Origin: Georgenia thermotolerans
Lineage (GTDB): Bacteria; Actinomycetota; Actinomycetes; Actinomycetales; Actinomycetaceae
Reading direction: 5' to 3'
Assembly: GCF_009193185.1 (NCBI RefSeq)
Contig: NZ_VUKF01000033.1
Coordinates: 1-52,631, forward strand
Length of the DNA: 52,631 nt
The notes under the pieces were generated by a model. The model did not search any database and was not told the origin of the DNA. It saw only the letters and a program-made list of their open reading frames with translations. Shown one piece after another: positions 2 through 47,519 of this stretch. Position 1 is the first letter of the stretch, and the number at the start of each line of letters is the position of its first letter. A program made the position numbers and the translations under genes.

Positions 2-616
2 CCCGCCGCACCCACCACCCCGCCGGACACCGCCGGCGCGGCACCGACCGAGCGGATCGCCCCTGCGCCGGCGCGACGGTCCGGCCCGCCCCCGCGCCCG
101 CCGCTGTCGGCCGAGACCCCCGCCCCGGTGCGCCGGGAGGTCCCGCCCCCGCGCGCAATCCTCACCAGCCGGACCCTGTGGCTGCTCAGCTTCGTCGCCG
201 GCCTGGTGGCCGCCGGCTTCGCCTGGCTGGACCGCACCGCCGGCCAGCAGCGGCTGACCGAGATGGTGACCGAGCTCGACCCCACCCGGGACCCAGCGTC
301 CCTGGCGTCCCTCGGGCGGCTGATCTTCTGGGGCTCCTTCGCCGCCGTGCTGCTGGTCATCGTGGTCGAGGCGCTGCTGCTGCGCACGATGATGGGCCGG
401 CGCGCCTGGGCGCGCATCGCCCTGCTGGTCATGCTGATCGTCCACGCCGCGGTCATGGTCCTCGCCGACGCCTACCTCGCCGCGGCGGGGGCGGAGGGTG
501 CCGGGGTCCGCTGGCCGCTGGTCGCCCAGCTGCTGCTGGCCGCGGCGGCCTGGATCGTCAGCCTCGCGCCGTCGGCGACGCGCTGGTTCCGCGCGGAGCC
601 GTCGTCCCCGGCGTGA
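2..616 (+). CDS. Partial Pro-rich four-helix membrane protein (5' end outside window)
   Basis: An open frame runs without a stop from the first complete codon at position 2 to TGA at 614-616, so the gene very likely starts before the window. A GTG at 128 is an alternative start, but the frame before it has the same Pro/Ala/Arg-rich character. The visible N-terminal part looks disordered and cytoplasmic. Four hydrophobic helices follow, at about 173-230, 320-385, 410-481 and 512-568, with a charged loop between the first two. I do not recognise the family. The gene converges on iniC and the two coding regions overlap by 59 bases, which suggests the pair is old and compact. Its position beside an ini cluster hints at a membrane role, but that is inference. 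Confidence 0.6.
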   Translation, partial: PAAPTTPPDTAGAAPTERIAPAPARRSGPPPRPPLSAETPAPVRREVPPPRAILTSRTLWLLSFVAGLVAAGFAWLDRTAGQQRLTEMVTELDPTRDPASLASLGRLIFWGSFAAVLLVIVVEALLLRTMMGRRAWARIALLVMLIVHAAVMVLADAYLAAAGAEGAGVRWPLVAQLLLAAAAWIVSLAPSATRWFRAEPSSPA

Positions 617-2159
617 CCGGCTCGCGGCCCGCGCCCGCGATACGCGGGGCGGCGGGATCCTCGGAGGACGGCGCCCGCAGCACCAGCCGCTGACGCCCGC
701 CCCCGCCGGCCGCGGCCACCAGCGCCTCGCAGCTGCGCACCACCACCTCGCAGACGGCGGCCGTGGCCCGGTCCGTCAGCGGGTTCGCGGCCAGCGCCCG
801 CCAGCGGCGCAGCGCGGCGAGCGCCTGCTCGCGCACCTCTCCCGGCGCGGCGTCGTCCCCCAGCCCCAGCCGGCGGGCCGCGCCGACCCCGGCCCCGCCC
901 ACGAGCCGCTCGGCCTCGGCGGCCAGCGCGGCGGGCACCGGCAGCCCGGAGGTGCGGGCCGTGGCGAGCAGCCGCAGCTCGCGGAACTCGTGCGCCCCGG
1001 CCTGCACCCGCTCGACCTCGGCGGCCAGCCGCTCGGTGCCGGGCCGGGGCCGCTCGCGGAGCAGGGCCTCCAGGCCCACGAGCGTCGTGCGTGCCTTGAG
1101 CTGGCCGGCGCGGGCCTGGAACTGCCCGTCGAGCAGGCGCTGGAGCTCCCCGAGACCGCTGCGGCGGGCCATGTCGTGGGCGAGCTCGGTGGGGTCGTCG
1201 ATGCCGCTGCGGATGAGCACCATGGCCAGGCGCAGCCCGAACATCCCGAACCGCTCGAGCAGGGCCGCGCGCACCTCGGGGTCCACCGGGGTGCCGGCGG
1301 CGTGGGCGAACCGGTCGGCCGACAGGAGCAGCCGCTCGCGCTCCTCCCGCTCCAGCCCGGCCAGCGCGCGCAGCGCGGCGAACTCGGCCTGGCGCAGCGT
1401 CCGCGCGCTCTGGGCGAGCAGCCCGGCGACCGGCACCACCGCGAGCGCCAGCTGACGCAGCACCGGGTCCTCCCGGTAGCGGGCGGCGACGTCCCGGGCG
1501 GAGACCATCGTGTCGAGCCGCCCGGCGCCCACCTCGTCGGCCCGGGAGAGCACCGCCAGGGCGTTGACCGTGCCGGAGCGGCCCGCCGCCGCGTCGCGGA
1601 AGGACTCGAGGAAGTGGATGTCCGAGCCGTGCAGGTGCCGCAGGAGGTAGACGACGGCGTCGGCCTCCGACGGGGCGTCGTCGGGGGTGAGGAAGGCCGT
1701 CGCCCGGGCCGACACGTCGGTGGACAGCGAGGCGATGCCCGGGGTGTCGATGAGGGTCAGCTCGCGCAGGCTCGCCGTCGGCCAGTCCACGACCAACCGG
1801 GCCACCGCCTCCGCCGGCAGGCCCGCGAGGTCCAGCCGGAGGCGCCCGTCCACCCGGCGCACCGGCAGCTGGCGCGGCTCGCCGTCGACCGGGTGGAGGG
1901 TGACGCGCGGGACGGGCCCGTAGCGGTACCAGGTCACCACCCGGGTGCACTCGCCGGTGTCGGTGGGGGCCAGCTCCTCGCCGAGGATGGCGTTGAGGAG
2001 GGTGGACTTGCCCGCCTTGACCATGCCGGCGACGGCGACGCGCAGCGGCCCGTCGAGCCGGGCGGCGTAGCCGCGCAGCAGCGCGGCGGCCTGCGGGTCG
2101 TCGCCGTAGACCTCGAGGGCGTCGCGCAGCAGGCGGCGGACGGCGCCGTCGGTGCTCAC
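558..2159 (-). CDS. iniC: IniC, dynamin-like GTPase of the iniBAC cluster
   Basis: Predicted dynamin-like GTPase of 533 residues, slightly longer than mycobacterial IniC (about 490). The G1 loop GMVKAGKST lies at 45-53, a PTDTGECTR segment follows it, the G3 motif DTPG is at 138-141 and the G4-like SRAD at 205-208. The blocks LLAQSARTLRQ and LLERFGMFGLR are as I recall them in M. tuberculosis IniC. There is no clear transmembrane segment, so it probably acts at the inner membrane face with IniA. The GTG start at 2159 overlaps the iniA stop as GTGA, which indicates translational coupling. The last residues are a Pro/Thr/Ser-rich tail. The 3' end overlaps the convergent membrane gene. Known for the family: induced by cell-wall inhibitors in mycobacteria. 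The role here is inferred from homology and gene order. Confidence 0.88.
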   Translation of the reverse strand: MSTDGAVRRLLRDALEVYGDDPQAAALLRGYAARLDGPLRVAVAGMVKAGKSTLLNAILGEELAPTDTGECTRVVTWYRYGPVPRVTLHPVDGEPRQLPVRRVDGRLRLDLAGLPAEAVARLVVDWPTASLRELTLIDTPGIASLSTDVSARATAFLTPDDAPSEADAVVYLLRHLHGSDIHFLESFRDAAAGRSGTVNALAVLSRADEVGAGRLDTMVSARDVAARYREDPVLRQLALAVVPVAGLLAQSARTLRQAEFAALRALAGLEREERERLLLSADRFAHAAGTPVDPEVRAALLERFGMFGLRLAMVLIRSGIDDPTELAHDMARRSGLGELQRLLDGQFQARAGQLKARTTLVGLEALLRERPRPGTERLAAEVERVQAGAHEFRELRLLATARTSGLPVPAALAAEAERLVGGAGVGAARRLGLGDDAAPGEVREQALAALRRWRALAANPLTDRATAAVCEVVVRSCEALVAAAGGGGRQRLVLRAPSSEDPAAPRIAGAGREPVTPGTTAPRGTSASPTARG

Positions 2160-4036
2160 GGCACCACCGCGCCGGCCCCGGCGGCCGGTGCCGCGCCCGC
2201 GCTCGCACCGGAAGCCGGCGCCCCGCCCGACCGCGGCGCCGTGGCCTCCTTGCCCAGGGCCTCGGCGCGCCGGCGCAGCGCCTCGACTCTGGCCAGCTCC
2301 GCCTGCAGCGTCTTGATCCGCTGCTCGCGCTCGGCGGTGAACACGGTGGCGGCGCGCTGGGCGACGAGGACGGAGTCGGTCAGGGAGCGGTGGTGCTCCT
2401 CGGCGATCTCGGTGAAGTGGTCGCGGATGGCCCGCTGGACCACCCGCAGCCGGTCCCGCAGCTGCTTGCCGACCTGGAACGTCACGTCGTCGACCTGGCG
2501 GCGCACGATGCTCTTGGCCTCGGCCTGGCGCCGCTTGAGCCGGTTCTCCTTGTCGTCGCGGTAGACCTTCCCGCCCAGCAGCACCCCGGCCCCCACCGAG
2601 ATGGGGTTGATGAGGGACAGCCCGGCGATCCCGGTGAGCAGGCCGAACATCAGCACCCCGCCGTAGGAGCCGCGCATGCCGATGAGGACCTTCTGCACCG
2701 CCGAGACGTGGCCCGGGTCGAGGTCGGGCACGGGGGCGACGGGGTCGAGGACGTCGTCGGTGTCCTCCACGTGCAGCAGCGGCAGGCTGACGTCGTCCTC
2801 CGCGAACAGGTCGCCGACCTGCTCGGCGAGCCACTGCGACCGCTCGGCGGTCCACACGAACGTCTCGGAGACCGCCGAGGCCACCCGCTGCTCGAGCCAG
2901 TCCGCGAACTGGTCCCACACCGGGCCGGGGTCGCCGGCGTCGATGGCCTGCTCGGCCTCGCGCTGGACGGCGCGCAGCCGGTCGCGCAGGTCGTAGTCCA
3001 TGTCGGCGATGAGGTCGGCCATGCCGTCGTTGAGCGTCACCTGCCAGCGGGCCGAGCGCTTGCGCTGCTCGTCGGCGCGGTCCTTGGCCACCTCGAGCTC
3101 GGCGAGCAGCTGCGGGGTGCGCTCGGGGTCCTGCAGGGCGGAGAGCTCGGAGCTCAGGGCCAGGCGCAGGTGCTCGGCCGTGGAGAGCAGGTCGTGCGCC
3201 ACCGAGCGGCGCTGGAGCCGCTCGGCCTGCCCGACGATCTCCCGGCGCAGGTAGGCCACCAGCGCGGGGAAGCCCGACTCGGCGTTGAGCTCCTGGTCGC
3301 CCACCTGGCCGGCGTGCAGGCGCAGCACCGAGGAGACCGGGAACAGGGGGATGTCGGCCGCGACCCGGGCGAGGTGGCCGCGGTCGAGGTCGGCCACGCG
3401 CCGCCACTGCGGGTACAGGTCGGTCTTCGACAGCACCGCGGCGACGTTCGGGCACACCCGCATCGCCTGGCGCAGGAAGTGCATCTCCGGCTCGGTGTAC
3501 TCCTGGGAGGCGTCGGAGACGACCAGCACGGCGTCCGCGGCGGGCAGCGCGGTCAGGGTGGCCAGGGCGTGGGCGGAGTCCAGGCCGCCCACGCCCGGGG
3601 AGTCGACGACGGCGAGCCCGCCGGCGAGGACCGCGCGCGGCAGCGTGACCTCGGCCCCGACCAGGCGCTTGGTGTTGCCGGGGTTGCCGGCCTCGGTGAC
3701 GAAGCGGGGAAGGTCCTCCAGCGGGACCGGGCGGCGCTCGGGGGCGGCGTCCTCTCCCCCGCCGGCGAGCAGGACGGCGGCGGTGGGCTGCTCGCCGTGG
3801 CGGACCACCGTGGGCACCGCCGTCGCGACGTCGTCGTCCACCGGGCACACCGGCGCCCCGACGAGGGCGTTGATGAGCATGCTCTTGCCCTGCTTGAACT
3901 CCCCGACGACGAAGACGCGGATGGCGGGGTCGAGCAGCCGGCGCCGGGTCTGCTCCAGGCGGCGGCGCAGGTCCGCGCGCTCGCCGTCGCGCACCAGCGT
4001 GATGGACTGATCGACCAGCGTGACCAGATCTGCCAC
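2156..4036 (-). CDS. iniA: IniA, bacterial dynamin-like membrane-fission GTPase
   Basis: The 626-residue protein matches mycobacterial IniA along its length. G1 GEFKQGKS is at 45-52, G3 DSPGVGG at 145-151 and G4 SKTD at 203-206; the stretch DASQEYTEPEMHFLRQ is a hallmark of the family. A hydrophobic membrane-inserting loop containing GMRGSYGG and NPISVGAG lies at about 455-495, followed by a charged coiled-coil region and a Gly/Ala/Pro-rich tail. IniA of mycobacteria is a dynamin-like protein that remodels membranes and confers tolerance to cell-wall drugs. The GTG start at 4036 is preceded by a GGGAGGG ribosome site. Its stop overlaps the iniC start (GTGA). Between iniB1 and this gene there is a strong hairpin and only about 37 bases without a good -10, so expression may depend on read-through. 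Confidence 0.93.
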   Translation of the reverse strand: MADLVTLVDQSITLVRDGERADLRRRLEQTRRRLLDPAIRVFVVGEFKQGKSMLINALVGAPVCPVDDDVATAVPTVVRHGEQPTAAVLLAGGGEDAAPERRPVPLEDLPRFVTEAGNPGNTKRLVGAEVTLPRAVLAGGLAVVDSPGVGGLDSAHALATLTALPAADAVLVVSDASQEYTEPEMHFLRQAMRVCPNVAAVLSKTDLYPQWRRVADLDRGHLARVAADIPLFPVSSVLRLHAGQVGDQELNAESGFPALVAYLRREIVGQAERLQRRSVAHDLLSTAEHLRLALSSELSALQDPERTPQLLAELEVAKDRADEQRKRSARWQVTLNDGMADLIADMDYDLRDRLRAVQREAEQAIDAGDPGPVWDQFADWLEQRVASAVSETFVWTAERSQWLAEQVGDLFAEDDVSLPLLHVEDTDDVLDPVAPVPDLDPGHVSAVQKVLIGMRGSYGGVLMFGLLTGIAGLSLINPISVGAGVLLGGKVYRDDKENRLKRRQAEAKSIVRRQVDDVTFQVGKQLRDRLRVVQRAIRDHFTEIAEEHHRSLTDSVLVAQRAATVFTAEREQRIKTLQAELARVEALRRRAEALGKEATAPRSGGAPASGASAGAAPAAGAGAVVP

Positions 4037-4073
4037 GGTCCCTCCCTCGGGCGTGAGGATCTATCGCACCACA

Positions 4074-4114
4074 GGGCCGGCCCGCCGGGGGACGGAATCC
4101 CCGAGGGCCGGCCC
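4074..4114 (-). terminator. Hairpin between iniB1 and iniA, likely attenuating terminator
   Basis: GGGCCGGCCC occurs at 4074-4083 and again at 4105-4114; the sequence is self-complementary, so the copies can pair. The inner parts CGGGG and CCCCG extend the stem. It lies just after the iniB1 stop and before iniA. There is no U-tract, as is usual in high-GC actinobacteria. It could lower iniAC expression relative to iniB1. Confidence 0.6.
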
Positions 4115-4129
4115 GGCGGTCGGTGCGGC

Positions 4130-5215
4130 TCAGCTCGGCACGTCGCCCAGGCCGTCCGGGCCGACGTCGGTGCCGGTGAAGCTGTCGGAGAAGGTCTCGT
4201 CGAAGGAGTCGTGCACGACGAGGGCGTCCTCGGTGCTCCCGGCCTCGTCGGCCGCGACGACGGCGCTGCCCGGGACGTCGGCGGTGCCGATCTCGTCGTC
4301 GGTAATCGCCGCCGGGGCGTCGTGGGTGGAGCCATCCGAGGCGTCAACCTCGAGGTCGGCGTCCGTGAGGCCGGCGCCGGCCACGTCGTCCAGGTCGGCG
4401 TCGTCGACGTCCGTGCCGACGTCGTCCGGCGTGAAGGAGTCCTCGAGGTCGACGTCGACGTCGGGCGACGGGCCGTCGAAGGCGTCCGTCAGGTCGAGGT
4501 CGACGTCGGTGGGGCGGTCGGAGCCGTCGTCGAACGCGTCCTCCGTGAGGTGCCCCGAGTGCTCGGAGCCGTCGGTGACGTGGTCGTCGTCGAAGGAGTC
4601 CTCGACGTCGAGGTCGGTGGTGCCGATCTCGACGGCGGCGTCGTGAGCCTCGAGGTTCGTCGAGCCGTCGGTGGCGGCGTCGACGTGCACGTCGCCGCCG
4701 GCTGCGATCGCGCCGTCGCCCGTGGCGACGATCGCGTCGTTGTCGAACCACTGCAGGACGTCGCCGTCGGCCCACACGTTCTGGTGCACCGCCTGGTCCG
4801 TGACGGTGTCCCGGTCGTCCACGCTGGAGGTGTATGCGTAGCTGTTGACGATGTGGGTCAGCTGCGTCACGGCGTGACCGTGGTCGTCGTCGCCGTGGCC
4901 GCCCCAGCCGTCGTCGTCACCGCGTTCGGTGTGCTCCGGGCCCCGTCCGCCGTCCTGGTGCCGGTCCCCGCGGCCGGGCCCGCCCCAGGAGGTGCCGCCG
5001 CCCGCGTGCCCGGCGCCTTGGAAGGACGTGTCGACCCGCATCGGCGCGTAGTCGAGGACCACCGGCAGCACGGCGTCGACGTCGTCGGTGTGGACGTCGT
5101 CCAGGCCGGCCCGGTGCAGCTCCCCGTGGGGATCCTCGCGGAACCGCTCCGCCGCGTCGGGGTCCCTGAGCATCTGCATCAAGAACTCCAGCAACGCGTT
5201 GGCGATGGTGGTCAT
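4130..5215 (-). CDS. iniB: IniB-like protein 1, Asp-rich repeat protein
   Basis: The 361-residue protein begins with an IniB-type N-terminal helix domain (about 1-55; NALLEFLMQMLRDPDAAERF). A linker rich in Gly/His/Asp follows, then a conserved block (VTQLTHIVN, DDRDTVTDQAV, LQWFDNDAIVATGDGAIAAG at about 115-180), then a strongly acidic region with recurring DSFDD and VDVDLEDSF motifs to the C-terminus. There is no signal peptide or membrane helix. It aligns end to end with the neighbouring 375-residue paralogue but lacks two of its 18-residue repeats and has far fewer Asn residues. A GAGGAG ribosome site sits just before the ATG at 5215, and it has its own promoter. The function of IniB proteins is not established; I infer a partner of the IniA/IniC dynamins at the envelope. 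Confidence 0.82.
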   Translation of the reverse strand: MTTIANALLEFLMQMLRDPDAAERFREDPHGELHRAGLDDVHTDDVDAVLPVVLDYAPMRVDTSFQGAGHAGGGTSWGGPGRGDRHQDGGRGPEHTERGDDDGWGGHGDDDHGHAVTQLTHIVNSYAYTSSVDDRDTVTDQAVHQNVWADGDVLQWFDNDAIVATGDGAIAAGGDVHVDAATDGSTNLEAHDAAVEIGTTDLDVEDSFDDDHVTDGSEHSGHLTEDAFDDGSDRPTDVDLDLTDAFDGPSPDVDVDLEDSFTPDDVGTDVDDADLDDVAGAGLTDADLEVDASDGSTHDAPAAITDDEIGTADVPGSAVVAADEAGSTEDALVVHDSFDETFSDSFTGTDVGPDGLGDVPS

Positions 5216-5265
5216 CGAGTCTCCTCGTCGTCATCGCCCGGGGGCGAGCGGCGTGCGCTGCGTCG

Positions 5266-5311
5266 AACGTAAGCGCCGCCGACCCGGACGGCATCGGGGT
5301 CCTGCCCGTAC
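5266..5311 (-). promoter_or_regulatory. iniB1 promoter with shared dyad operator
   Basis: On the minus strand a -10 box TACGTT lies at 5271-5266, with no TTGACA-like -35 box. A dyad reading CATCGG-N8-CCGTAC on the plus strand (5292-5311) is centred about 42-43 bases before the predicted transcription start near 5259. The same arrangement precedes iniB2, so this is a likely activator site. The obvious candidate activator is the LuxR-type protein encoded at 6901-9435. Confidence 0.55.
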
Positions 5312-5390
5312 CTGCGCCCGTCCGCGTTAGGGGGTGCCGGCCCCTGAGGCTAGGGGCCTGCCGGCCCCGCCCGGCCAGGGCAGGGCGAGG

Positions 5391-5429
5391 CCGGTGGCCG
5401 GCCCGAGGGGGGGTCGGGCCGGCCACCGG
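5391..5429 (-). terminator. Terminator hairpin after iniB2
   Basis: A perfect 16-base inverted repeat (CCGGTGGCCGGCCCGA at 5391-5406; its complement at 5414-5429) encloses a 7-base G-run loop. It starts 8 bases after the iniB2 stop codon. There is no U-tract. It separates iniB2 from the iniB1 promoter. Confidence 0.75.
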
Positions 5430-5436
5430 GGCGGGG

Positions 5437-6564
5437 TCACGCGACGCCGTCGACCTCGAGCTCGTTGTCGGAGAAGTTGTCCGAGAAGTTGTCGTCGAAG
5501 GAGTCCTCCACGACGACGTTGTCCTCGATCTCGGTGTTCCCGACCTCGTTGTCGGCGATGACGACGTTGTCCGACACGTTGGTGTTGCCCACCTCGTTGT
5601 CGGAGATCGTCGTGGAGTGGTCGTGGGTGGAGTTGTCCGAGGCGTCGACGTCGATGTCCGCGTCCTTGGCGTCGATCCCGTCGTTGTCGGTGTTGCCGAC
5701 GTTGTCCAGGTCGACGTTCTCGACGTCGATCCCATCGTTGTCGGAGTTGCCCACGTTGTCCCAGTCGACGTTCTCGACGTCGATCCCGTCGTTGTCCTGG
5801 GTGAAGGAGTCGTCGATGTCGACGTCGACGTTGGTGGACTCGTCGTTGAACGAGTCGGTGGCGTCGAAGTCGACGTTGGTGGAGTTGTCGGAGTGGTCCG
5901 AGTTGTCCTCGGAGTGGTCGTCGTTGAAGGAGTCGTCGATGTCGACGTCGGTGTTGCCGACCTCGACGGTGGAGTCGTGCGCCTCGACGTTGGTGGAGTT
6001 GTCGGTGGAGTTGTCGACGTGCGCGTCGTCGCCGGCGGCGACGGAGTCGTCGCCCGAGGCGATGATCGCGTCGTTGTCGAACCACTGCTTGACGTCGCCG
6101 CCGTCGGTCCAGATGTTCTGGTTCACGGACTGGTCGACGTTGGTGTCCCGGTCGTCGATGTTCTTGGTGTACTCGAAGTTGTTGACGATGTGGGTCAGCT
6201 GGGTCACCGCGTGGTCGTGGTCGTGGTCCCGGCCGTGGTCGTGGTCGCGGTCGTGGTCCCGGCCGTGGTCGTGGTCACGGTCGTGGTCCCGCCCGTGGTC
6301 ACGGTCGCTGCGCGAGACGGCCTCCGCCCGGGCGTAGGCCTCCGCCCGCGCCGACGCCTCGGCGCGGGCCTCGCCGCCGACCTCCCGCCTGACGGCGTGC
6401 TCGAGCACGACCGGTGCGACGGCCTCGACGTCGGCGCTGCAGATGTTGGCGAGCCCGGAGCTGGCGAGGTAGCCCTCGGGGTCGGCGTTGAACTCGGCAG
6501 CGGCCTGCGGGTCGCGCATGAGGTTCATCAGGAACTCGAGCAACTGGCTGGCGATGGTGGCCAT
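5437..6564 (-). CDS. iniB: IniB-like protein 2, Asn/Asp/His-rich repeat protein
   Basis: The protein has 375 residues from the ATG at 6564, which follows GAGGAGA at good spacing; longer starts have no such site. Residues 1-58 form the IniB N-terminal domain (SQLLEFLMNLMRDPQAAAEF). An Ala/Glu/Arg helix follows (59-84), then a His/Asp tract at 90-118 made of GRDHDRDHDH units, then the conserved block VTQLTHIVNNFEYTKN and WFDNDAIIASGDDSVAAGDD. Residues 185-370 are almost only Asp, Asn, Ser, Val, Thr, Glu and Gly, with DSFNDD motifs and three 18-residue tandem repeats at 257-310. There is no signal peptide or transmembrane helix. The His/Asp tract could bind divalent metal, and the acidic repeats could scaffold a multivalent assembly; both are inference. 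It is the better-conserved repeat copy of the tandem pair. Confidence 0.82.
   Translation of the reverse strand: MATIASQLLEFLMNLMRDPQAAAEFNADPEGYLASSGLANICSADVEAVAPVVLEHAVRREVGGEARAEASARAEAYARAEAVSRSDRDHGRDHDRDHDHGRDHDRDHDHGRDHDHDHAVTQLTHIVNNFEYTKNIDDRDTNVDQSVNQNIWTDGGDVKQWFDNDAIIASGDDSVAAGDDAHVDNSTDNSTNVEAHDSTVEVGNTDVDIDDSFNDDHSEDNSDHSDNSTNVDFDATDSFNDESTNVDVDIDDSFTQDNDGIDVENVDWDNVGNSDNDGIDVENVDLDNVGNTDNDGIDAKDADIDVDASDNSTHDHSTTISDNEVGNTNVSDNVVIADNEVGNTEIEDNVVVEDSFDDNFSDNFSDNELEVDGVA
5635..5796 (-). repeat. 54-bp tandem repeats within iniB2
   Basis: Three successive 54-base units encode DNDGIDVENVDWDNVGNS, DNDGIDVENVDLDNVGNT and a diverged DNDGIDAKDADIDVDASD. The first two are nearly identical in DNA. 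iniB1 carries only one degenerate unit at the matching place, so copy number has changed since the duplication. Confidence 0.85.
6211..6297 (-). repeat. 30-bp repeats encoding a His/Asp tract in iniB2
   Basis: About three units of 30 bases encode GRDHDRDHDH. The unit is an in-frame coding repeat, not a spacer-repeat array. Confidence 0.85.
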
Positions 6565-6900
6565 CGGTGATCTCCTCGTCCTTGAAGCGTCAGGGCCGGG
6601 CGGGTTCCGCCCGACTGAGGCGAACGTAGGACCGGACAGGTGTCGACCACATCGGGGGTGCCGCCGATGCTTGCGGGCTCGGGATGGGGTCTCGGCCCGG
6701 GCACCCGCGTTCCGGGGTCTGGGCTCTGGTAGGGGGTGGGGCTCAGGGGTGAGGGGGACGGGTGATCGGTGGATGAAAGCCGGCAGGCTGCGGCCTGGCG
6801 TGCCCGGGCACACGACGCGTCGGGGGGCGTCGCGCGACGTCCTCAGCGCTCAGTCCCGGACGTCCGAGGTGCTGGACCGGACGGGGCCGGAGCGCTCCGG
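6565..6900. other. Non-coding gap between the regulator and iniB2
   Basis: No convincing gene. It holds the iniB2 promoter and operator (6623-6669) and a 50-base leader. A perfect 16-base palindrome GCCGGAGCGCTCCGGC spans 6886-6901 at the regulator's stop codon and CGTCGCGCGACG lies at 6828-6839; either could act as a weak terminator. Confidence 0.6.
6623..6669 (-). promoter_or_regulatory. iniB2 promoter with dyad operator and GACAGGTGTCG element
   Basis: On the minus strand the -10 box is TACGTT (6628-6623) with no recognisable -35 box. A perfect dyad CATCGG-N8-CCGATG (6650-6669) is centred about 43 bases before the predicted start near 6616, the usual place for a class II activator. GACAGGTGTCG (6635-6645), itself containing the inverted repeat GACA-GG-TGTC, lies in the spacer and is repeated in the hsp70 promoter. 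Confidence 0.6.
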
Positions 6901-9435
6901 CTACGCGCTCCACTCCTCGCCGAGGGCGATGCGCAGCCGGGCGAGCAGCTCCGAGCGCGAGGCCGCGCCGAGCCGGCGCCGGATCCGTGCGACGTGGTGC
7001 TCCACGGTGCGCGGTGAGATGTAGATCGTGTCGCCGATCTCGCGGTAGGTCTTGCCCGCCAGCACCAGCCCGGCGATCTCCCGCTCGCGGGGGCTGAGCC
7101 CGCTGTCGTCGACGAGGGGGCGGCTCGCCGCGGGTGCGGGCTCCTGCGGCAGGCCGGGCTTGGTGCCGGGATGCAGGTCGCGGGCCCGGGCGAGCAGGCG
7201 CGCCATGTCCTTGCGCTCCTCCGTGCGGGCGGCGGCGTGCCCGGCCAGGCGGGAACCGTCCCAGGTCAGCCCGACGGACGCCAGCCCGCGGGCGGCGTTC
7301 TCCACCGTCGCCACGTCGACGTTCCCGGCGAGCACCGACACCCAGGCCCGGCCGGCGGAGGCGAGGACGGCGGCGTAGTGGCTCTTCCCGGCCGCGCGGA
7401 CGAGCGCCGCGGCGTGCGGGCCGAGGTCGGCGGGCCGCTCGGCCAGGATGGCGGCGTGCACGTGGGCCCAGTGAAGCGGCACCGCCCACAGCGGCGGGTC
7501 GCCCAGCCGGCTCAGCAGCGCCCACGCCTCCGCGACGTGTCCCTCGACCCGGGCGGTGTCCCGCAGCCGGGCCGCGGCGATGAGCAGCTCGCCGAGCGGG
7601 AGCAGGGTGAACAGGTCGACCGGGAAGTGCAGGATCGTCTCCCGGGCCCGGCCCCACGCCTGCACGAGCGCCGGGGCGTCGTCGGTCCGCCGGGCCAGCC
7701 CCACCTCGAGCGCGCGCAGGAAGAGCTCCTCCCGCGGGGAGGCGGGGTGCCCGCCGGCGGCCGCCTCGGCGAGGGCGCTCTGGGCGAGGTCGGGGCGGTC
7801 GCGGAGCATCGCCGTCCACGCCCGGAACAGCAGCAGGCCCGGGCGGGCGGCGGCACTGCCCTGCCCGCCGGCCAGGGCGCCCTCGACGACCGACTCGGCC
7901 ACGGAGAGCTCTCCGACGTGCAGGGCAACCAGCGCCCCGAGCGCCGCCGGGGAGATCGGCAGGGGGATGGCGCAGCCGCTGGCGGTGAGCATGTCCGAGG
8001 CGCGCACGAGCGAGGCCATGGCGGCGGTGGCGGAGCCGTCGAGGGTCGCCCGCAGCCCCTCGGACATCAGGCCGGGCACCGCCGCGAGCACGGTGGGCGG
8101 CGCGGCCGCCGGCGCGGCGTCGAGCATCTCCTCGGCGCCCTCGCGGTCCCCCGCCCCGAGCAGGGCCACGACGGCGAGCGGCGCGGACGCGCCCACACGC
8201 CCCGCCCCGAGCCAGCGGTACACCTGGGCGCTGCGCGCCAGCATCCCGCGCCGGGACCAGACCTCGGCGGCGACGTCGACGGCGCGGCCCAGGTCGGGCG
8301 GGCCGGGCTGGGTGAGCAGGTCGTCGACGATGCGGCCGGCCTCGTCGAGGTCGCCGGACAGCGCGGCGGCCTGGGCGCGCCGGGCGGCGAGCGCGCCGGC
8401 GTCGGCCCCGGCGGCGACGGCCTGGGCGTACAGCGCCCGGGCGGCGACGGGGTCCCGCGCCAGGGCGGCGTCGGCCTGACCGGTGAGCGCGGCGGCCACG
8501 CGCGGGTCGGCCAGGCCCGTCCGGGCGAGCTGGCGGGCGACGTCGTCCAGGGGGCGGCCGAGGGTGTCGACCGCCGCGAGCAGGGCGCGTTGGCGCGCCC
8601 GGACCCGGTGGGCCGGCGTCGCCGCGAGCAGGGCCTCGCCGACGAGGGGGACGATCGCGCCGGCGGACGTGAGCAGCCCGGCGGCCTCGCCGTGGGCGAC
8701 GAGGTCCTCCACGCCGTCCAAGTCCCGCTCGAGGGCCGGCGGCGGGGTGTCGCCGGAGAGGTCGAAGCCGACCGCGAGGTCGAGCAGCAGCTCGCGCAGC
8801 CGGTCGTCGAGGTGCTCGAGCTCGCGGCCGAGCTGGGCGAGCACGGCGGGCGGGGCCACCTGGACGCCGTCGCGCGGCCAGGTGGTCACGACCCGCTGGA
8901 CGAGCCACGGCATCCCCGCGGTCACCCGGGCCAGCGCGTCCACGACCGCGCCGGGGACCGGCTGCCCGCGCCGGTGCGCTGCGACGACGGCGATGTCGTC
9001 CCGGGCCATCGGACCGAGCGCGACGGGCGGGCGGTGCAGGTCGAGCGTGGCGAGCAGGGCGCGCAGGGCGCTGCTGCGGGGCCAGGGTCGGTGGGCGACG
9101 ACGAGATGGCTCTCCCCCGTCTGGGCCAGCTCGCGCAGCCGCCCGAGAGTGACGTCGTCGAGGTCGTGGGCGTCGTCGACGAGGACGGCGGTGTACGCCG
9201 TCGCGTCCCGGCTCGCCAGGTCCGGGGTGGGGCCGTGCCGGGTCTCGAAACCGGCCGCCCGGTAGACGCTGGCCAGCTCGCCGAGGAGGGCCGACTTGCC
9301 GGTGCCGGCGGGGCCGGTGACGCCCACGAGCAGGCGGCGCTGCGGGTCGGCGGCGACCTCGTCGAGCAGCGCGGCCGCGGGACCGCGCAGGCTGCGCACG
9401 GGGAAGGCGGTGGTTGCGCGGGTGTCCACGGTCAC
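6901..9435 (-). CDS. Large LuxR-family ATPase transcriptional regulator (LAL/MalT type)
   Basis: The 844-residue protein has an N-terminal AAA/STAND-type ATPase with Walker A GPAGTGKS at 41-48 and a Walker B-like AVLVDDAHD, then a long Ala/Leu-rich helical-repeat region (about 280-740) and a C-terminal GerE/LuxR helix-turn-helix (LSPREREIAGLVLAGKTYRE ... SPRTVEHHVARIRRRLG) in the last 70 residues. Such proteins are activators that oligomerise on ligand and nucleotide binding. The GTG start at 9435 overlaps the hsp70 stop (GTGA) and is preceded by GGAGGG; a second GTG lies six bases downstream. Coupling to hsp70 suggests the chaperone-like protein and the regulator form one sensing unit. The paired dyads before iniB1 and iniB2 are candidate binding sites. 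Signal unknown. Confidence 0.88.
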   Translation of the reverse strand: MTVDTRATTAFPVRSLRGPAAALLDEVAADPQRRLLVGVTGPAGTGKSALLGELASVYRAAGFETRHGPTPDLASRDATAYTAVLVDDAHDLDDVTLGRLRELAQTGESHLVVAHRPWPRSSALRALLATLDLHRPPVALGPMARDDIAVVAAHRRGQPVPGAVVDALARVTAGMPWLVQRVVTTWPRDGVQVAPPAVLAQLGRELEHLDDRLRELLLDLAVGFDLSGDTPPPALERDLDGVEDLVAHGEAAGLLTSAGAIVPLVGEALLAATPAHRVRARQRALLAAVDTLGRPLDDVARQLARTGLADPRVAAALTGQADAALARDPVAARALYAQAVAAGADAGALAARRAQAAALSGDLDEAGRIVDDLLTQPGPPDLGRAVDVAAEVWSRRGMLARSAQVYRWLGAGRVGASAPLAVVALLGAGDREGAEEMLDAAPAAAPPTVLAAVPGLMSEGLRATLDGSATAAMASLVRASDMLTASGCAIPLPISPAALGALVALHVGELSVAESVVEGALAGGQGSAAARPGLLLFRAWTAMLRDRPDLAQSALAEAAAGGHPASPREELFLRALEVGLARRTDDAPALVQAWGRARETILHFPVDLFTLLPLGELLIAAARLRDTARVEGHVAEAWALLSRLGDPPLWAVPLHWAHVHAAILAERPADLGPHAAALVRAAGKSHYAAVLASAGRAWVSVLAGNVDVATVENAARGLASVGLTWDGSRLAGHAAARTEERKDMARLLARARDLHPGTKPGLPQEPAPAASRPLVDDSGLSPREREIAGLVLAGKTYREIGDTIYISPRTVEHHVARIRRRLGAASRSELLARLRIALGEEWSA

Positions 9436-11414
9436 CCTCCCGTCCCTCCGGTGCCGGCCGGGGCCTCGACGAGCTGGGTGTCCCCCTGGACGGTCGACGG
9501 GCTCTCCGCCGGGCTCGTCGGCTCGGTCGGGGCCGGCGGCGTTGTGGTCGGGTCCTCCTGCCCGGTGGTGCCGCCGCTGGGCGGCTCGGTCGCCGGGGCC
9601 GGGGTCGTCGGTGCCGGCGTCGGCGAGGGTGACGGGGCCGGGCTGGTGGACGGCGGCGGCGCCTGGGTCGCCGGGGTGGAGGGGGTGCCGGTCGCGCCCG
9701 GCGTGCTGGTACCGGTGGTGCTCGGGGTGCCCGTCCCGGCCGGGCGCGGTGCCGACGGGCCGGCCGCCGGGGTGCTCGGCTGGGCGGCGGTCGACGACGG
9801 CGCCCCGGGGGTCGGGGTGGCCTCCGGGGTGGGACCGGCCGTCGTGCGCCGGGCCGCCGGCCTGGCCGTGCCGGAGGTCGGGCCGGCCGCGCCCTTCCCG
9901 GGCGTCGTGGCGTCGCCGGTGCCGGTCGCGGAGGCCCCGGGCGTCGTGCCGGTCGCGGCACCATTCGGCGTGCCCGCCTGGGCCTCGTTCAGGGTCGGGG
10001 GGAGCAGGCTGTGCACGACCTCGGGGGTCTGGCCCGCGACGGCGGTGAGCATCGTGATGCCGACGACCCCGGCGAGCACGGCCGCCACCTTGGCCCCGCG
10101 GCGGGTGCCGACCAGCCACGGTCCGCCACCGGCCGCGCCGACCGGGGCGGGGAGCCGGGCGTCGAGCGGCAGGGTCGGAGCGTCGTAGGCGGCCCCGCCC
10201 GTGCCGGGTGCGGCCGCGCCGACGGCCCGGTCCTCGTCCGGCACCGGGGCGCCGGCCGCCGCGTCGGAGGACGGGGCGGCGTCGTCGACCGTCACCGTGG
10301 CGCCCTCCGCCGCGCCGGGAAAGGCGGCCGCCAGGGCGGCACCGAGGCAGATGCTGGCCTTGGGGTCGGCGTCGACGGCGACGGGCCGCCCCAGCTCGGC
10401 CGAGACGAGCTCGGCGACCAGCGGCACCCGGGAGGAGCCGCCCACGAGCAGGACGGCCGACAGCTCGCCCGGGTCGACCTCGGCGACGCTGAGCGCGTGC
10501 CGGAGGGTCTCGACGCTCTCGCGCACTGGGCCCTCGATGAGCCCCTCGAACTCGGCGCGGACGAGCCGGACCTGGGTGTGCACCCCGGGCAGCAGGACCG
10601 GCACGGTGGTCTCGGAGTCGCCCGAGAGCGCCTCCTTGGCCTCGGTGCACTCGCGGCGCAGGCGGGAGCAGGCCAGCAGGACGGCCGGGTCGGCGGTGTC
10701 CAGCGCCGCGAGGGCGCCGTCGAGGCTGGTGGTGACGTGACGGAAGACGGCCTCGTCGAAGTCGGCCCCGCCGAGGCGCTCGAGGCCCTCGGGGGTGCCG
10801 AGGACGTCGAAGGTGTCGGCGGCGGCCTTGCGCAGGACGGCGACGTCGAACGTCCCGCCGCCGAGGTCGTAGACCGCGATGGTGCTGCCGACGTCGACCC
10901 GTTCGAAGCCGGCGTAGTGCAGCGCGGCGGCCTCGGGCTCGCTGATGAGCGCGGCGTCGCCGAGCCCGACGCCCGCGAGCGCCTCGCGGAGCAGGCCGGT
11001 CTTGTAGCCGCCCCACCCGGCGGGGTGCGCGACGACGACCCGCTCGGGGGCCTCCCCCTCCTGCTCGGTCGCGCGGTCCACCACCCAGCGCGCGAGGGCG
11101 GCGAAGACGTCCTGCGGCGCCACGAGCTGGTCCCCGACGACCAGCGGGACGGGATCGCCGACCCGGCGCTTGGACTCGCGCACGACCCGGTGCGGGTCGG
11201 TGAGCCCGCGGCGCTCGGCCGCCTCGCCGACCAGCAGCTGGCCGTCCTCGCCGAGATAGATCACCGACGGCGCGGCGGTGGAGCGCGTGCCCAGGTGCAG
11301 CAGCTGCGGCGCCTCGTGACCGGCGCCGCCGAGCCGGGTGATGGCGGCTGCGACAAAGCTCGTGCCGATGTCGATGCCGACCACGTACGCCATGAACCCC
11401 CCTAGCCGCTTCAT
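9432..11414 (-). CDS. Membrane-anchored Hsp70-like ATPase with extracellular Pro/Thr-rich tail
   Basis: Residues 8 to about 375 form an Hsp70-type actin-fold ATPase: phosphate 1 GIDIGTSF (13-20), phosphate 2 VYDLGGGTFDVAVL and adenosine motif VLLVGGSSRVPLV. The DnaK substrate-binding domain is missing. A linker of about 60 residues is followed by one transmembrane helix at about 440-459 (VAAVLAGVVGITMLTAVAG). The last 200 residues are Pro/Thr/Ala/Ser-rich, low in charge, and would face outside. The ATPase would be cytoplasmic. The ATG at 11414 follows GGAGG at 6 bases; an ATG 21 bases on is an alternative. The stop overlaps the regulator start. It may sense the cell wall through the tail and signal to the regulator, by analogy with receptor-like layouts; that is inference. 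Confidence 0.87.
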   Translation of the reverse strand: MKRLGGFMAYVVGIDIGTSFVAAAITRLGGAGHEAPQLLHLGTRSTAAPSVIYLGEDGQLLVGEAAERRGLTDPHRVVRESKRRVGDPVPLVVGDQLVAPQDVFAALARWVVDRATEQEGEAPERVVVAHPAGWGGYKTGLLREALAGVGLGDAALISEPEAAALHYAGFERVDVGSTIAVYDLGGGTFDVAVLRKAAADTFDVLGTPEGLERLGGADFDEAVFRHVTTSLDGALAALDTADPAVLLACSRLRRECTEAKEALSGDSETTVPVLLPGVHTQVRLVRAEFEGLIEGPVRESVETLRHALSVAEVDPGELSAVLLVGGSSRVPLVAELVSAELGRPVAVDADPKASICLGAALAAAFPGAAEGATVTVDDAAPSSDAAAGAPVPDEDRAVGAAAPGTGGAAYDAPTLPLDARLPAPVGAAGGGPWLVGTRRGAKVAAVLAGVVGITMLTAVAGQTPEVVHSLLPPTLNEAQAGTPNGAATGTTPGASATGTGDATTPGKGAAGPTSGTARPAARRTTAGPTPEATPTPGAPSSTAAQPSTPAAGPSAPRPAGTGTPSTTGTSTPGATGTPSTPATQAPPPSTSPAPSPSPTPAPTTPAPATEPPSGGTTGQEDPTTTPPAPTEPTSPAESPSTVQGDTQLVEAPAGTGGTGG

Positions 11415-21716: not shown

Positions 21717-23192
21717 TCACTTGCGGTCCTCGAACCACCCGGTGACCTGCGGCCGGGTGTTGTGGTAGACGTGCTTGGCCTCCTGGTACTCCGCCAGGCC
21801 GGTGGGGCCGAGCTCGCGACCCACCCCCGACTGGCCGAAGCCGCCCCACTCGGCCTGGGGCAGGTACGGGTGGAAGTCGTTGATCCACACCGTCCCGTGG
21901 CGCAGCCGCCCGGCGACGCGCTGGGCGCGGCCGGCGTCCTGGGTCCACACCGCGCCCGCCAGCCCGTAGTGCGTGTCGTTGGCCGTGGCGACGGCCTCGT
22001 CCTCGTCGGAGAAGGTCTCCACGGTCACCACCGGGCCGAAGGCCTCGTCGCGCACGGCGGACATGCCCCGGCGGACGTTGTCGAGCACGGTGGGCAGGTA
22101 GTAGTAGCCCTTGGCCAGCTCGCCCTCGCCCCAGGCGCCGCCGCAGCGCACCCGGGCGCCCTCGGCGACGGCCTGCTCGACGTAGGCGGTGACCTTGTCG
22201 CGGTGGGCGGCGGAGATGAGCGGGCCGGTCTCGGCGGCCTCGTCGAACGGCCCGCCGAGCCGGATGCCCTGGGCGCGGCGGACGAGCTCGTCGACGAAGC
22301 GCTCGGCGATGGTGTCCTGGACGATGATCCGGGCGCCGGCGGAGCAGACCTGGCCGGAGTGGACGAAGGCGCCGTTGAGGGCGTTGTCCACGGCGGCGTC
22401 GAAGTCGGCGTCGGCGAAGATGACATTGGGGTTCTTCCCGCCGAGCTCGAGGGCCACCTTCTTCACGGTGCCGGCCGCGGCCGCGGCGATCACCTTGCCC
22501 GTCTCCAGGCCGCCCGTGAAGGAGACCATGTCGACGTCGGGGTGGGACGACAGGGGCGCCCCGGCGGTGGCACCGGCGCCCAGGACGAGGTTGGCCACGC
22601 CGGCGGGCAGCCCGAGCTCGTCGAGCACCTGCATCATGAGGATCGCGGTGTGCGGGGTGAGCTCGGAGGGCTTGAGGACGAAGGCGTTGCCCGCGGCCAG
22701 GGCCGGGGCGATCTTCCACGCCGCCTGCAGCAGCGGGTAGTTCCACGGCGTGATGAGGCCGCAGACGCCGATCGGCTCGTAGACGATGCGGGAGACGACG
22801 TCGGCGTCCCCGGCGTCGACCAGGCGGCCGGCCTCGAGCCCGGCGAGCTTGCCGAAGTAGGCGAAGCAGGCGGCGATGTCGTCCATGTCGATCTCGCTCT
22901 CGACCAGCCGCTTGCCGGTGTCGAGGGACTCGGCGCGGGCGAACTCCGCCTTGCGCTCGCGCAGCCGGTCGGCGACCTTGAGCAGGAAGTCGCCGCGCTC
23001 GGGGGCCGGGACGGCGCGCCAGGCGCCGCCGTCGAAGGCGGCGCGGGCGGCGGCGATCGCCGCCTCGGTGTCCTCGGCGCCGGCCTCGGCCACGACCCCG
23101 ACGAGCTCGCCGTCGGCGGGGTTGCGGATCTCGCGGGTCTCGCCGCTTGCGGCCGGGACCCACCGTCCGTCGATGAACAGGGTGTTCGTCAT
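21717..23192 (-). CDS. betB: Betaine-aldehyde dehydrogenase
   Basis: The 491-residue NAD(P)-dependent aldehyde dehydrogenase has the NAD site block TPWNYPLLQAAWKIAPALAAG, a catalytic Glu in VALELGGKNPN, a catalytic Cys in HSGQVCSAGARI, and a C-terminal GGFGQSGVGRELG. The length is usual for BetB. It oxidises betaine aldehyde from BetA to glycine betaine, an osmoprotectant. Its ATG shares a base with the betT stop (TGATG), with GGAGGAG upstream inside betT, so it is translationally coupled to the transporter. Other aldehyde dehydrogenases share these motifs; context between betT and betA makes the assignment firm. Confidence 0.92.
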   Translation of the reverse strand: MTNTLFIDGRWVPAASGETREIRNPADGELVGVVAEAGAEDTEAAIAAARAAFDGGAWRAVPAPERGDFLLKVADRLRERKAEFARAESLDTGKRLVESEIDMDDIAACFAYFGKLAGLEAGRLVDAGDADVVSRIVYEPIGVCGLITPWNYPLLQAAWKIAPALAAGNAFVLKPSELTPHTAILMMQVLDELGLPAGVANLVLGAGATAGAPLSSHPDVDMVSFTGGLETGKVIAAAAAGTVKKVALELGGKNPNVIFADADFDAAVDNALNGAFVHSGQVCSAGARIIVQDTIAERFVDELVRRAQGIRLGGPFDEAAETGPLISAAHRDKVTAYVEQAVAEGARVRCGGAWGEGELAKGYYYLPTVLDNVRRGMSAVRDEAFGPVVTVETFSDEDEAVATANDTHYGLAGAVWTQDAGRAQRVAGRLRHGTVWINDFHPYLPQAEWGGFGQSGVGRELGPTGLAEYQEAKHVYHNTRPQVTGWFEDRK

Positions 23193-34914: not shown

Positions 34915-35363
34915 GCGTAGAACCGGAACAGGGTGGTCGCCGCGACCGCCGGCTTGGTACCGCCCTCGACCTCGATGACGTTGTCCAGGGTGAGCTGGTA
35001 CCCGCCGGGCACCTCGGTGACCTCGCGGACCGTGGAGCCCATCCGCACCCGCGAGCCGACCTTGACCGGGGAGGGGAAGCGCACCTTGTCCAGGCCGTAG
35101 TTGACCTTGGTGGTCACGCCCTCGACGTCGAGCAGCTCCTCGGAGAAGGGGATGATCAGCGACAGGCTGAGGTAGCCGTGGGCGATGGGGGCGCCGAACG
35201 GGCCGTCCTTGGCGCGCTCGGGGTCGACGTGGATCCACTGGTGGTCGTCGGTGGCGTCGGCGAAGAGGTTGACCTGCTCCTGGGTGATCTCGCGGTAGCC
35301 GGAGAAGCCGAGGTCGGTGCCGGCGAGGCCGGGCAGGTCCTGGAACGTCACGGTGGTGGTCAT
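34911..35363 (-). CDS. MaoC-like enoyl-CoA hydratase
   Basis: The 150-residue hot-dog fold protein has the hydratase motif QVNLFADATDDHQWIHVDPERA with catalytic Asp/His positions, then GPFGAPIAHGYLSLSLI, the usual (R)-specific enoyl-CoA hydratase signature, and VNYGLDKVRFPSPVKVGSRVR. It would add water to the enoyl-CoA made by the dehydrogenase encoded next. ATG at 35363 overlaps the ligase stop (ATGA), and its own stop overlaps the dehydrogenase start, so the whole set is translationally coupled. Confidence 0.9.
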   Translation of the reverse strand: MTTTVTFQDLPGLAGTDLGFSGYREITQEQVNLFADATDDHQWIHVDPERAKDGPFGAPIAHGYLSLSLIIPFSEELLDVEGVTTKVNYGLDKVRFPSPVKVGSRVRMGSTVREVTEVPGGYQLTLDNVIEVEGGTKPAVAATTLFRFYA

Positions 35364-47473: not shown

Positions 47474-47519
47474 GTGCTGTTGTTCCTCTTCCCCGTCGCG
47501 CCGGGCGCACGACCTCAGC

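Follow-up and report, generated by a model that had tools for sequence, protein, structure and literature searches.

An Hsp70-like gene coupled to iniR in a two-unit ini locus of Georgenia thermotolerans: a possible membrane-anchored restraint on the IniR activator

The iniBAC promoter is reported to respond to ethambutol and isoniazid more strongly and specifically than any other in mycobacteria, and the role published for iniBAC is in cell-wall stress (PMC5760070, accessible part). The activator IniR was characterised in M. marinum and M. tuberculosis, where it is syntenic (Rv0339c / MMAR_0612), regulates iniBAC only and is not itself induced by ethambutol (EMB) or isoniazid (INH) (Boot et al. 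2017). The accessible part of that paper also reports an iniB-like gene, iniB*, so that mycobacteria too have an iniB pair, and places a dnaK-like gene beside iniR in a single sentence, for M. smegmatis only and with no function proposed; in that part 'dnaK' occurs once and 'Hsp70' never. Among the matches listed in the literature searched, which covered few subscription journals, Boot et al. was the only source tying an Hsp70 gene to iniB, iniA or iniC. Trehalose is the cue reported for mycobacterial IniR, and IniR is said to resemble MalT, a STAND activator. In the accessible part of PMC10427625, MalK anchors MalT and MalY blocks it, and the three named MalT inhibitors, MalK, MalY and Aes, are unrelated proteins with no Hsp70 fold among them. 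MalT boxes are repeated, one of them overlapping the -35 (PMC7567727, accessible part).

We analysed a stretch of 52,631 nucleotides of the Georgenia thermotolerans genome (contig NZ_VUKF01000033.1), here called the window. An earlier note on this DNA had described an extended iniBAC locus of six genes, and verified frames together with family matches confirm that all six are real, rightly placed and on the minus strand.

9432-11393, minus strand: hsp70-like gene, 653 aa, PF00012 at E 2e-48
10032..10088, minus strand: transmembrane (TM) helix predicted by hydropathy at residues 436-454 of the Hsp70-like protein
6901-9435, minus strand: iniR (LuxR-ATPase), 844 aa, GTG start, NCBIfam NF038181 at E 5.5e-149
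5437-6564, minus strand: iniB-1, 375 aa, NF038175 at E 2e-20
4130-5215, minus strand: iniB-2, 361 aa, NF038175 at E 1e-16
2156-4036, minus strand: iniA, dynamin-like GTPase, 626 aa, matching 6J72 (solved IniA) at E 5e-149
558-2159, minus strand: iniC, dynamin-like GTPase, 533 aa, Dynamin_N at E 3e-12

Translational coupling holds for hsp70 and iniR, as the note proposed, whose stop and GTG start overlap in GTGA at 9432-9435, and for iniA and iniC, which share another GTGA overlap, but not for iniR and iniB-1, which are separated by 336 bp containing a candidate promoter. As judged from the DNA, the locus is made of two predicted units, a regulatory operon hsp70-iniR and a target unit of iniB-1 plus iniB-2-iniA-iniC, with each iniB preceded by its own candidate IniR-type promoter.

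The LuxR-ATPase is identified by homology as IniR, the published iniBAC activator. It matches NF038181 with 498 bits over model positions 4-825 of 827, carries a P-loop NTPase (GPAGTGKS), a middle region and a C-terminal LuxR-type HTH (GerE, E 3e-13), and adjoins iniB, iniA and iniC. The window protein is a clear homologue, yet it falls under the curated equivalog cut-off of 750 bits. The IniR of 18 of 394 class genomes, all of one genus, exceeds that value, and on this ground we take the genus to be Mycobacterium (hereafter presumed mycobacteria). Like E. coli MalT, IniR would be a LuxR-HTH activator with an NTPase and repeated boxes (CCCCTA here, predicted), whereas the box sequence differs. 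Sequence support for a MalT-like nature is thin: the match of the IniR profile to MalT 8BOB is marginal (E 0.0014), the same NTPase region matches RuvB better (4e-6), and a search with the middle region on its own gave no significant match.

The first gene product was described in the note as a membrane-anchored Hsp70-type ATPase. Its nucleotide-binding domain spans about residues 1-365, with phosphate and adenosine motifs present and the residue signature DTKEDGTDG; the best DnaK alignment ends at residue 372 and retains the phosphate, Lys, Glu and DLGGGTFD motifs. No substrate-binding domain was found, as the best family and DnaK matches stop at about residues 372-381, and four DnaK models scored 124-168 bits, under their cut-offs of 648-1019. 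The 15 residues that lead into the single predicted TM helix include three Lys/Arg, and the 15 that follow the helix have none, which predicts the ATPase domain inside and a Pro/Thr/Ser/Ala-rich tail of 199 aa outside. An alternative in-frame ATG lies at 11414. Judged by hydropathy, 97 paired Hsp70s have a TM helix, 93 of them with the same positive-inside topology, and the tails of such proteins have a median length of 213 aa and are 48% P/T/S. The Hsp70s of Micromonospora, Phytohabitans and Saccharothrix show no clear TM helix by hydropathy, and membrane tethering is therefore not universal. Seventeen paired Hsp70s were scored 'no TM', a class in which three (L101, L106, L124) carry a TM helix overrun by the domain match, three (L154, L160, L163) are borderline with hydropathy values of 1.7-2.0, and one (L126) is cut by the contig end.

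The earlier note had suggested examining how often the hsp70-luxR pair occurs near iniBAC. We kept 133 of 137 loci (four with identical iniR C-termini were dropped); these are related to one another, so the counts that follow are not independent. Eight loci were left out for having less than 2.5 kb upstream of iniR; of the 125 usable ones, 111 have hsp70 as the gene immediately upstream of iniR. Among loci, 111 span 19 kb or more, and Hsp70, iniR, iniA and iniC occur together in 107 of these. The same adjacency was found in 75 of 80 named loci, a set that comprises the best 80 of 575 confirmed candidates and leans to close relatives. The pairing persists whichever way iniBAC is oriented. Exceptions are four loci with no Hsp70 within the examined stretch around iniR (L086, L090, L129, L169), and those with the Hsp70 gene beside iniB, not iniR, namely one family (L044-L046, L051, L059) and Pseudonocardia L164. 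IniB was found in 37 of the 394 class genomes, and every one of the 37 has an IniR match at E<1e-50, against one of the 357 genomes lacking IniB; the threshold matters, since at E<=1e-3 378 of 394 genomes match, mostly through the HTH alone. Some genomes carry Hsp70-like genes outside their ini loci (G049, G012, G249). The window's genome has just two Hsp70-family genes at E<=1e-15, DnaK and the gene of the locus, which makes chance adjacency of hsp70 and iniR unlikely; on this scarcity and the survey linkage together we rejected a chance neighbourhood. The survey supports one conserved module of hsp70, iniR, iniA and iniC, an outcome in favour of the note, which a pair seldom found beside iniBAC would have refuted, and what it adds is the Hsp70-iniR linkage across loci and the presence of IniR in every IniB genome.

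Compared with mycobacterial iniBAC (Boot et al. 2017, accessible part), the locus has in common iniR (the IniR model match covers 820 residues), an iniB-like pair, iniA, iniC and a conserved element just 5' of iniB, which takes a variant form in presumed mycobacteria; with the M. smegmatis ini locus it also shares an Hsp70-like gene adjoining iniR. The window is co-directional in the order hsp70-iniR-iniB-iniB-iniA-iniC, whereas the presumed mycobacterial loci examined are divergent; its Hsp70 ATPase residues are intact, whereas those of presumed mycobacteria are not; and its IniB is D/N/S-rich, unlike that of mycobacterial iniBAC. The earlier note had regarded the Hsp70 and the regulator as additions foreign to the mycobacterial locus, which it believed to have no Hsp70 partner, and the iniB duplication as a departure from mycobacteria. 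These views do not hold, given the published IniR, the dnaK-like gene of M. smegmatis and iniB*, and hsp70 lies directly upstream of iniR in 15 of the 18 presumed mycobacteria. Parts of the locus are less new than first thought, and the interpretation survives as one conserved module, not as a set of genes unknown from the mycobacterial locus. Unlike the present analysis, the accessible M. smegmatis account gives no distribution, topology or coupling of the dnaK-like gene.

The upstream regions of the two iniB genes contain the following elements.

6623..6657, minus strand: candidate iniB-1 promoter, CCCCGATG-N21-TACGTT
6730..6735, minus strand: the one exact CCCCTA ahead of iniB-1 (offset 82)
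5266..5299, minus strand: candidate iniB-2 promoter, CCCCGATG-N20-TACGTT
5328..5333, minus strand: CCCCTA box ahead of iniB-2, 38 bp 5' of the G in CCCCGATG
5351..5356, minus strand: CCCCTA box ahead of iniB-2, 61 bp 5' of the G in CCCCGATG

In the window, CCCCGATGN{20,21}TANNNT matches twice against 0.01 expected from shuffling. Across loci, iniB promoters commonly carry CCCCGATG 20-21 bp ahead of TANNNT, plus CCCCTA direct repeats at fixed offsets. CCCGATG-N20/21-TANNNT occurs within 250 bp of the iniB start in 67 of 119 loci, and elsewhere in 2.38 Mb it matches seven times, always on the iniA strand and upstream of iniA (one at 94 bp, six at about 1.4-2.3 kb). In 148 upstream regions CCCCTA was counted 247 times, against 18 after shuffling that preserves base composition only, and its offsets cluster at 37/38, 52, 61/62 and 69/70; window iniB-1 has no CCCCTA at these common offsets. 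Pattern matches across 17 genomes fell within the ini locus in 19 of 22 cases, and the joint pattern had no match in 6 of 16 genomes. The proximal element was not found by pattern in iniB promoters of Geodermatophilus, Agromyces, Naasia, Modestobacter and Kutzneria. Of the 18 presumed mycobacteria, 16 have a variant CCCCG(T/A)T form ahead of their main iniB, by a relaxed pattern that carries no chance estimate, the strict one having missed the mycobacteria (L075 and L076 were missed, with the start miscalled). A third genome-wide match to the proximal pattern (G000:C41:32153-32187) was rejected as an IniR target, as it lies among genes with translations that look phage-like by eye. We regard CCCCGATG with the CCCCTA array as a candidate operator for IniR, which in the scanned genomes hardly occurs outside ini loci; no paper giving the CCCCTA motif was found among the matches listed in the literature searched, with few subscription journals covered. 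At least two CCCCTA precede iniB in 82 of 133 upstream regions but hsp70 in 2 of 73 co-oriented loci. The candidate operator thus appears mostly absent ahead of hsp70-iniR, in line with the findings that EMB and INH do not induce iniR and that iniBAC is all that IniR regulates (Boot et al. 2017, accessible part).

As to the putative effectors, both iniB products exceed the 40-bit cut-off for the IniB N-terminal domain (IniB_NTERM; 72 and 60 bits). In the AlphaFold2 model of iniB-1 (mean pLDDT 53.8), residues 1-60 form an N-terminal helical domain with pLDDT 71-96, and beyond it there is no confident fold, with pLDDT below 50 for 224 of 375 residues. A beta-solenoid of the IniB repeats was considered and not supported, as the model is confident just for the N-terminal helices and predicts no strand. 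Dynamin_N matches in the locus reach E 1e-18 and 3e-12, and IniC matches 6J72 at 4e-6 and a bacterial dynamin at 7e-13.

Gene identities, hsp70/iniR coupling, the promoter code, conservation and the topology predicted for Hsp70 can be read from the DNA itself, and upon them we place a proposal, tentative yet the likeliest of those considered, by analogy with MalK and MalT: an IniR-controlled two-unit ini locus in which Hsp70 keeps IniR inactive until wall stress. The Hsp70-fold domain, here membrane-anchored with a disordered wall-reaching tail, would bind IniR and hold it inactive, a restraint paralleling that of MalK and MalY on MalT. Damage to the wall, possibly together with a soluble cue (trehalose, for example), would free IniR, which would oligomerise on the CCCCTA direct repeats beside CCCCGATG and activate both iniB genes along with iniA and iniC; the dynamins IniA and IniC may then remodel or protect the membrane. 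The sense-transduce-repair chain of Hsp70 tail, regulator and dynamins imagined in the earlier note would take this form. Whether Hsp70 would act as inhibitor or helper is a guess, its sign taken from MalT.

Hsp70/Hsp90-SGT1 are folding partners of plant and animal NLR proteins. Hsp70 might likewise be a positive folding partner that keeps the STAND protein IniR able to open and oligomerise. The same linkage data (111/125; 75/80 of the best 80 of 575) and the ATPase residues, which 60 of the 114 paired Hsp70s keep intact, the window protein included, agree with this role, but the protein lacks a substrate-binding domain, such a role needs neither TM helix nor long outer tail, and the other 54, with those of presumed mycobacteria in this group, do not have the residues intact (in a few cases owing solely to alignment gaps); we consider it unlikely. 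Both signatures are intact in 23 of the 114 pairs, that of Hsp70 alone in 37, the IniR Walker A alone in 39 and neither in 15, the Walker A count being a simple pattern that in two proteins matches the HTH as well. The IniR of Pseudarthrobacter chlorophenolicus (L135) is without the P-loop part, and that of an Agromyces (L151) retains it. The split follows lineages, and compensation is not claimed; retention of the pair despite loss of either or both signatures fits a binding partner rather than a foldase.

Alternatively, and with a similarly low probability, Hsp70 may be an effector and not a regulator, a membrane-bound scaffold bringing IniB, IniA and IniC to the damaged envelope. Of the 111 long loci, 107 have it together with iniA and iniC, its partial distance correlation is highest with IniC (0.41), then IniR (0.31), and it adjoins iniB in place of iniR in the six loci named above. 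However, hsp70 is mostly gene-coupled to iniR and a CCCCTA array before it is rare (2/73), and it is therefore probably not co-induced with the effectors. That the cluster is an anti-phage system of dynamins and a STAND-type ATPase is very improbable: PADLOC links IniA and IniC with LeoA/LeoBC dynamins (E about 1e-14 at best, graded weak), but gives no match for Hsp70 or either IniB and an HTH match only for IniR (E 1e-4), the distances of Hsp70, IniR, IniA and IniC are correlated with one another across 104 loci (Spearman 0.69-0.92), and the published role is in cell-wall stress (PMC5760070, accessible part).

Returning to Hsp70 as a restraint on IniR, we advance a broader reading with more reserve: the Hsp70 ATPase domain may be the cytoplasmic half of a wall-reaching receptor controlling a STAND-type activator, tuberculosis-type iniBAC may be a reduced form from which Hsp70 was lost, and the CCCCTA array may be a code read by IniR and common to actinomycetes with and without mycolic acids. 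Being present in most IniR loci examined and missing from some, Hsp70 is a concrete candidate for the sensor of the IniR locus, and it exists in bacteria outside Mycobacterium, where deletion is possible; the shared promoter code likewise offers a testable candidate IniR operator. To our knowledge, Georgenia is not expected to make mycolic acids, and the occurrence of ini loci in such lineages speaks for a response of greater age and breadth than mycolate stress alone.

Six genes make up the ini locus of the window, all on the minus strand and where the earlier note had placed them:

9432-11393, minus strand: hsp70-like gene (Hsp70 family match)
6901-9435, minus strand: iniR, the LuxR-ATPase gene (GerE HTH and IniR model match)
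5437-6564, minus strand: iniB-1 (IniB N-terminal domain)
4130-5215, minus strand: iniB-2 (IniB N-terminal domain)
2156-4036, minus strand: iniA (Dynamin_N, iniA/iniC; solved IniA 6J72)
558-2159, minus strand: iniC (Dynamin_N, iniA/iniC)

The regulator matches the IniR model at E 5.5e-149, yet lies below its equivalog cut-off, and the window IniA matches 6J72 at E 5e-149. A GTGA start-stop overlap confirms the supposed coupling of hsp70 with iniR and also joins iniA to iniC, while no coupling was found between iniR and iniB-1, which are separated by 336 bp. The AlphaFold2 model of iniB-1 is confident in the first ~60 residues only, which are mainly helical; beyond them the protein is acidic, D/N/S-rich and without a confident fold (mean pLDDT 53.8). 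Elsewhere in the window lie an ORF with VanW and PG_binding_4 domains (44816-47677) and genes for a BCCT transporter (23192-25552), an acyl-CoA dehydrogenase (33709-35238) and an AMP-binding ligase (35360-36871), all on the minus strand.

Boot et al. 2017 (PMC5760070, available text) describe IniR as an activator dedicated to iniBAC, which ChIP places directly upstream of that operon and whose regulon in M. tuberculosis is iniBAC alone. Ethambutol and isoniazid do not induce iniR itself, and trehalose is linked to IniR as an activating cue, with direct binding left open there. Several mycobacteria carry a syntenic locus in which iniB*, a small gene resembling iniB, separates iniR from iniBAC; in M. 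smegmatis a dnaK-like gene adjoins iniR. Because all three are in that paper, the regulator, the iniB pair and the Hsp70 neighbour were already in print; the Hsp70 partner and the regulator are thus not the novelties the earlier note took them for, and its iniB duplication is present in the window but not new relative to mycobacteria. According to the available text of a 2026 paper (PMC13413693), a second regulator, HpoR, is assigned to a palindromic site in the iniBAC promoter of mycobacteria. Our literature search returned nothing beyond Boot et al. 2017 on Hsp70 at ini loci, and within the literature searched the almost constant pairing of Hsp70 with IniR, its topology and the operator code described below appear to be new.

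IniR was found in 7 of 7 genomes listed under the window's genus, its own included, and in 11 of 121 across the family, 90 genomes without an IniR match being absent from that survey's listing. The closest named relative among the best 80 of 575 is the IniR of Georgenia ruanii (90% identity). Georgenia is not known to make mycolic acids. Across the class, an IniR match at E<1e-50 occurs in 38 of 394 genomes and IniB is matched in 37 (E<=1e-5), all 37 falling within the 38 (Fisher p 3e-51, relatedness ignored); in the odd genome, G007, which carries locus L060, the IniR is weaker and an in-house profile points to a possible IniB start.

The window, 56 survey-genome stretches and the named loci (best 80 of 575) gave 133 distinct IniR loci. 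Where at least 2.5 kb upstream of iniR was available, hsp70 lies directly upstream on the same strand in 111 of 125 loci and elsewhere in the locus in 10 more; it was not found within the stretch examined in four (L086, L090, L129, L169). In the 111 loci of at least 19 kb, Hsp70, iniA and iniC each occur in 108 and all three in 107, so that the co-occurrence supposed in the earlier note holds. Among the named loci (best 80 of 575), 75 are paired, with at least one pair in 27 of 29 labels, ranging from Georgenia, Arthrobacter and Microbacterium to Geodermatophilus, Micromonospora, Saccharothrix and Rhodococcus; two of the five unpaired loci are at contig ends (L141, L177). The orientation of iniBAC relative to hsp70-iniR varies (with, against, away) and the pair is mostly kept, being split, with hsp70 adjoining iniB, in one family (L044-L046, L051, L059) and in Pseudonocardia L164. 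All three weak-IniR loci (L060, L097, L098) have an Hsp70. Besides DnaK, just one Hsp70 at E<=1e-15 is found in the window's genome, in G487 and in G281, and several in G049, G012 and G249.

Some loci have further features. L090 has a full IniR-like gene and, upstream, an ORF with a putative sugar-binding domain; Hsp70, iniA and iniC were not found within 20 kb, nor a CCCCTA pair at the searched spacings. At an Arthrobacter contig end (L114:12174-14033) an iniR-3'/iniB-5' segment is repeated, perhaps as an assembly artefact. A second Hsp70-like gene follows iniR or iniC in presumed mycobacteria (L072, L074-L076, L081; L077-L080, L088). In G012, more Hsp70-like genes (G012:C1:2402342-2412167) lie 10-20 kb from the ini locus, as does an IniB N-terminal domain contained in a 1556-residue open frame.

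Alignment of the window Hsp70 with DnaK is limited to the ATPase domain, after which a single TM helix is predicted (residues 436-454), followed by 199 residues of outer tail. A helix with mean hydropathy of at least 1.5 occurs in 97 of 114 paired Hsp70s; in 93 of these 97 Lys/Arg is richer before the helix than after it, and in none poorer. Their tails have a median of 213 residues and are 48% P/T/S. Seven named Hsp70s (four Micromonospora, Phytohabitans, two Saccharothrix) fell below 1.5 in both analyses. In L060 (1737-4193, minus strand) an outer beta-propeller (Vgb_lyase, E 4e-20) replaces the Pro/Thr tail beyond the helix, a layout compatible with a receptor. The L098 Hsp70 also looks folded by eye in its outer part, which has no Pfam match. 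The DnaK-type catalytic set is retained in 60 of 114 paired Hsp70s and the Walker A pattern in the partner IniR of 62, both in 23 pairs and neither in 15. Many Arthrobacter-type loci have an IniR match that begins near window residue 190-213 or later, with the iniR ORF starting directly after the hsp70 stop, so these proteins are without the P-loop part. Hence the pairing is the constant feature, rather than ATP turnover by Hsp70 or IniR.

In the window, CCCCGATG-N20/21-TACGTT stands upstream of iniB-1 and of iniB-2. With TANNNT taken as the -10 box, CCCCGATG would fall a little upstream of where a -35 box normally lies. The TANNNT form of this pattern occurs twice in the window (0.01 expected) and three times in its genome, two being those of the iniB genes. 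In 17 other genomes it gave 22 matches, spread over 16 genomes, compared with 2 for a reversed control; judged from coordinates, 19 are in the ini locus (one, in G821, 1.8 kb upstream of iniA) and 3 elsewhere. CCCGATG-N20/21-TANNNT lies within 250 bp upstream of iniB in 67 of 119 loci with a called start. Its other matches, 7 in 2.38 Mb on both strands, are all on the iniA strand and upstream of iniA, at 94 bp in L080 and ~1.4-2.3 kb in L053, L055, L056, L093, L161 and L171; D/N-rich IniB-like ORFs occupy the gap in L055, L056 and L161. Microbacterium and relatives have one or two such ORFs before iniA, without an evident IniB N-terminal domain; those at L056:1527-3402 (+), L161:17554-19425 (-) and L055:16650-17651 (-) have a strong CCCCGATG-type promoter of their own. 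Of 18 presumed mycobacterial loci, 16 have a CCCCG(T/A)T variant ahead of the main iniB. The proximal element was found in 61 of 76 named iniB promoters, 54 with CCCCTA at a common offset as well, and in none from Geodermatophilus, Agromyces, Naasia, Modestobacter or Kutzneria; Kutzneria L143 bears a CCCGGATG form.

Further upstream sit direct repeats of CCCCTA, counted 247 times in 148 upstream regions and 18 times after shuffling. Where a proximal element is present (121 regions), they cluster at offsets of 37/38 (59 cases), 52 (16), 61/62 (59) and 69/70 (49) from its G, with the reverse form TAGGGG at offset 16 in 27 cases; window iniB-1 has one CCCCTA, at offset 82. A pattern joining both elements matched 12 times, in 10 of the 16 genomes scanned (control 0), and 10 of these matches are within ini loci as judged from coordinates. 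Of 73 loci with no opposed iniB, 2 show at least two CCCCTA before hsp70, versus 82 of 133 before iniB. The array is a candidate operator for IniR, judging by where it lies, how specific it is and the ChIP peak published for the region ahead of iniBAC.

Boot et al. likened the domain make-up of IniR to MalT (available text, PMC5760070); in our profile search MalT (8BOB) scored E 0.0014 and RuvB better, 4e-6, which is weak sequence support for the likeness. The available part of PMC7567727 describes MalT boxes that, like the CCCCTA array, are repeats, one overlapping the -35, although their sequence differs. Idle MalT is anchored at the membrane by MalK, and its oligomerisation is blocked by MalY (available text, PMC10427625). 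Distance correlations did not favour IniR over IniC as the Hsp70 partner. That Hsp70 is a helper of IniR seems unlikely, and we hold it equally doubtful that it is a scaffold for the effectors. By analogy with MalK and MalY on MalT, we propose that Hsp70 may contact and restrain IniR, and would do so at the membrane in those loci whose Hsp70 has a TM helix. The locus is a real, widely conserved module, in which wall damage, sensed via the Hsp70 tail or the membrane, may release IniR, and the dynamins IniA and IniC would repair the membrane.
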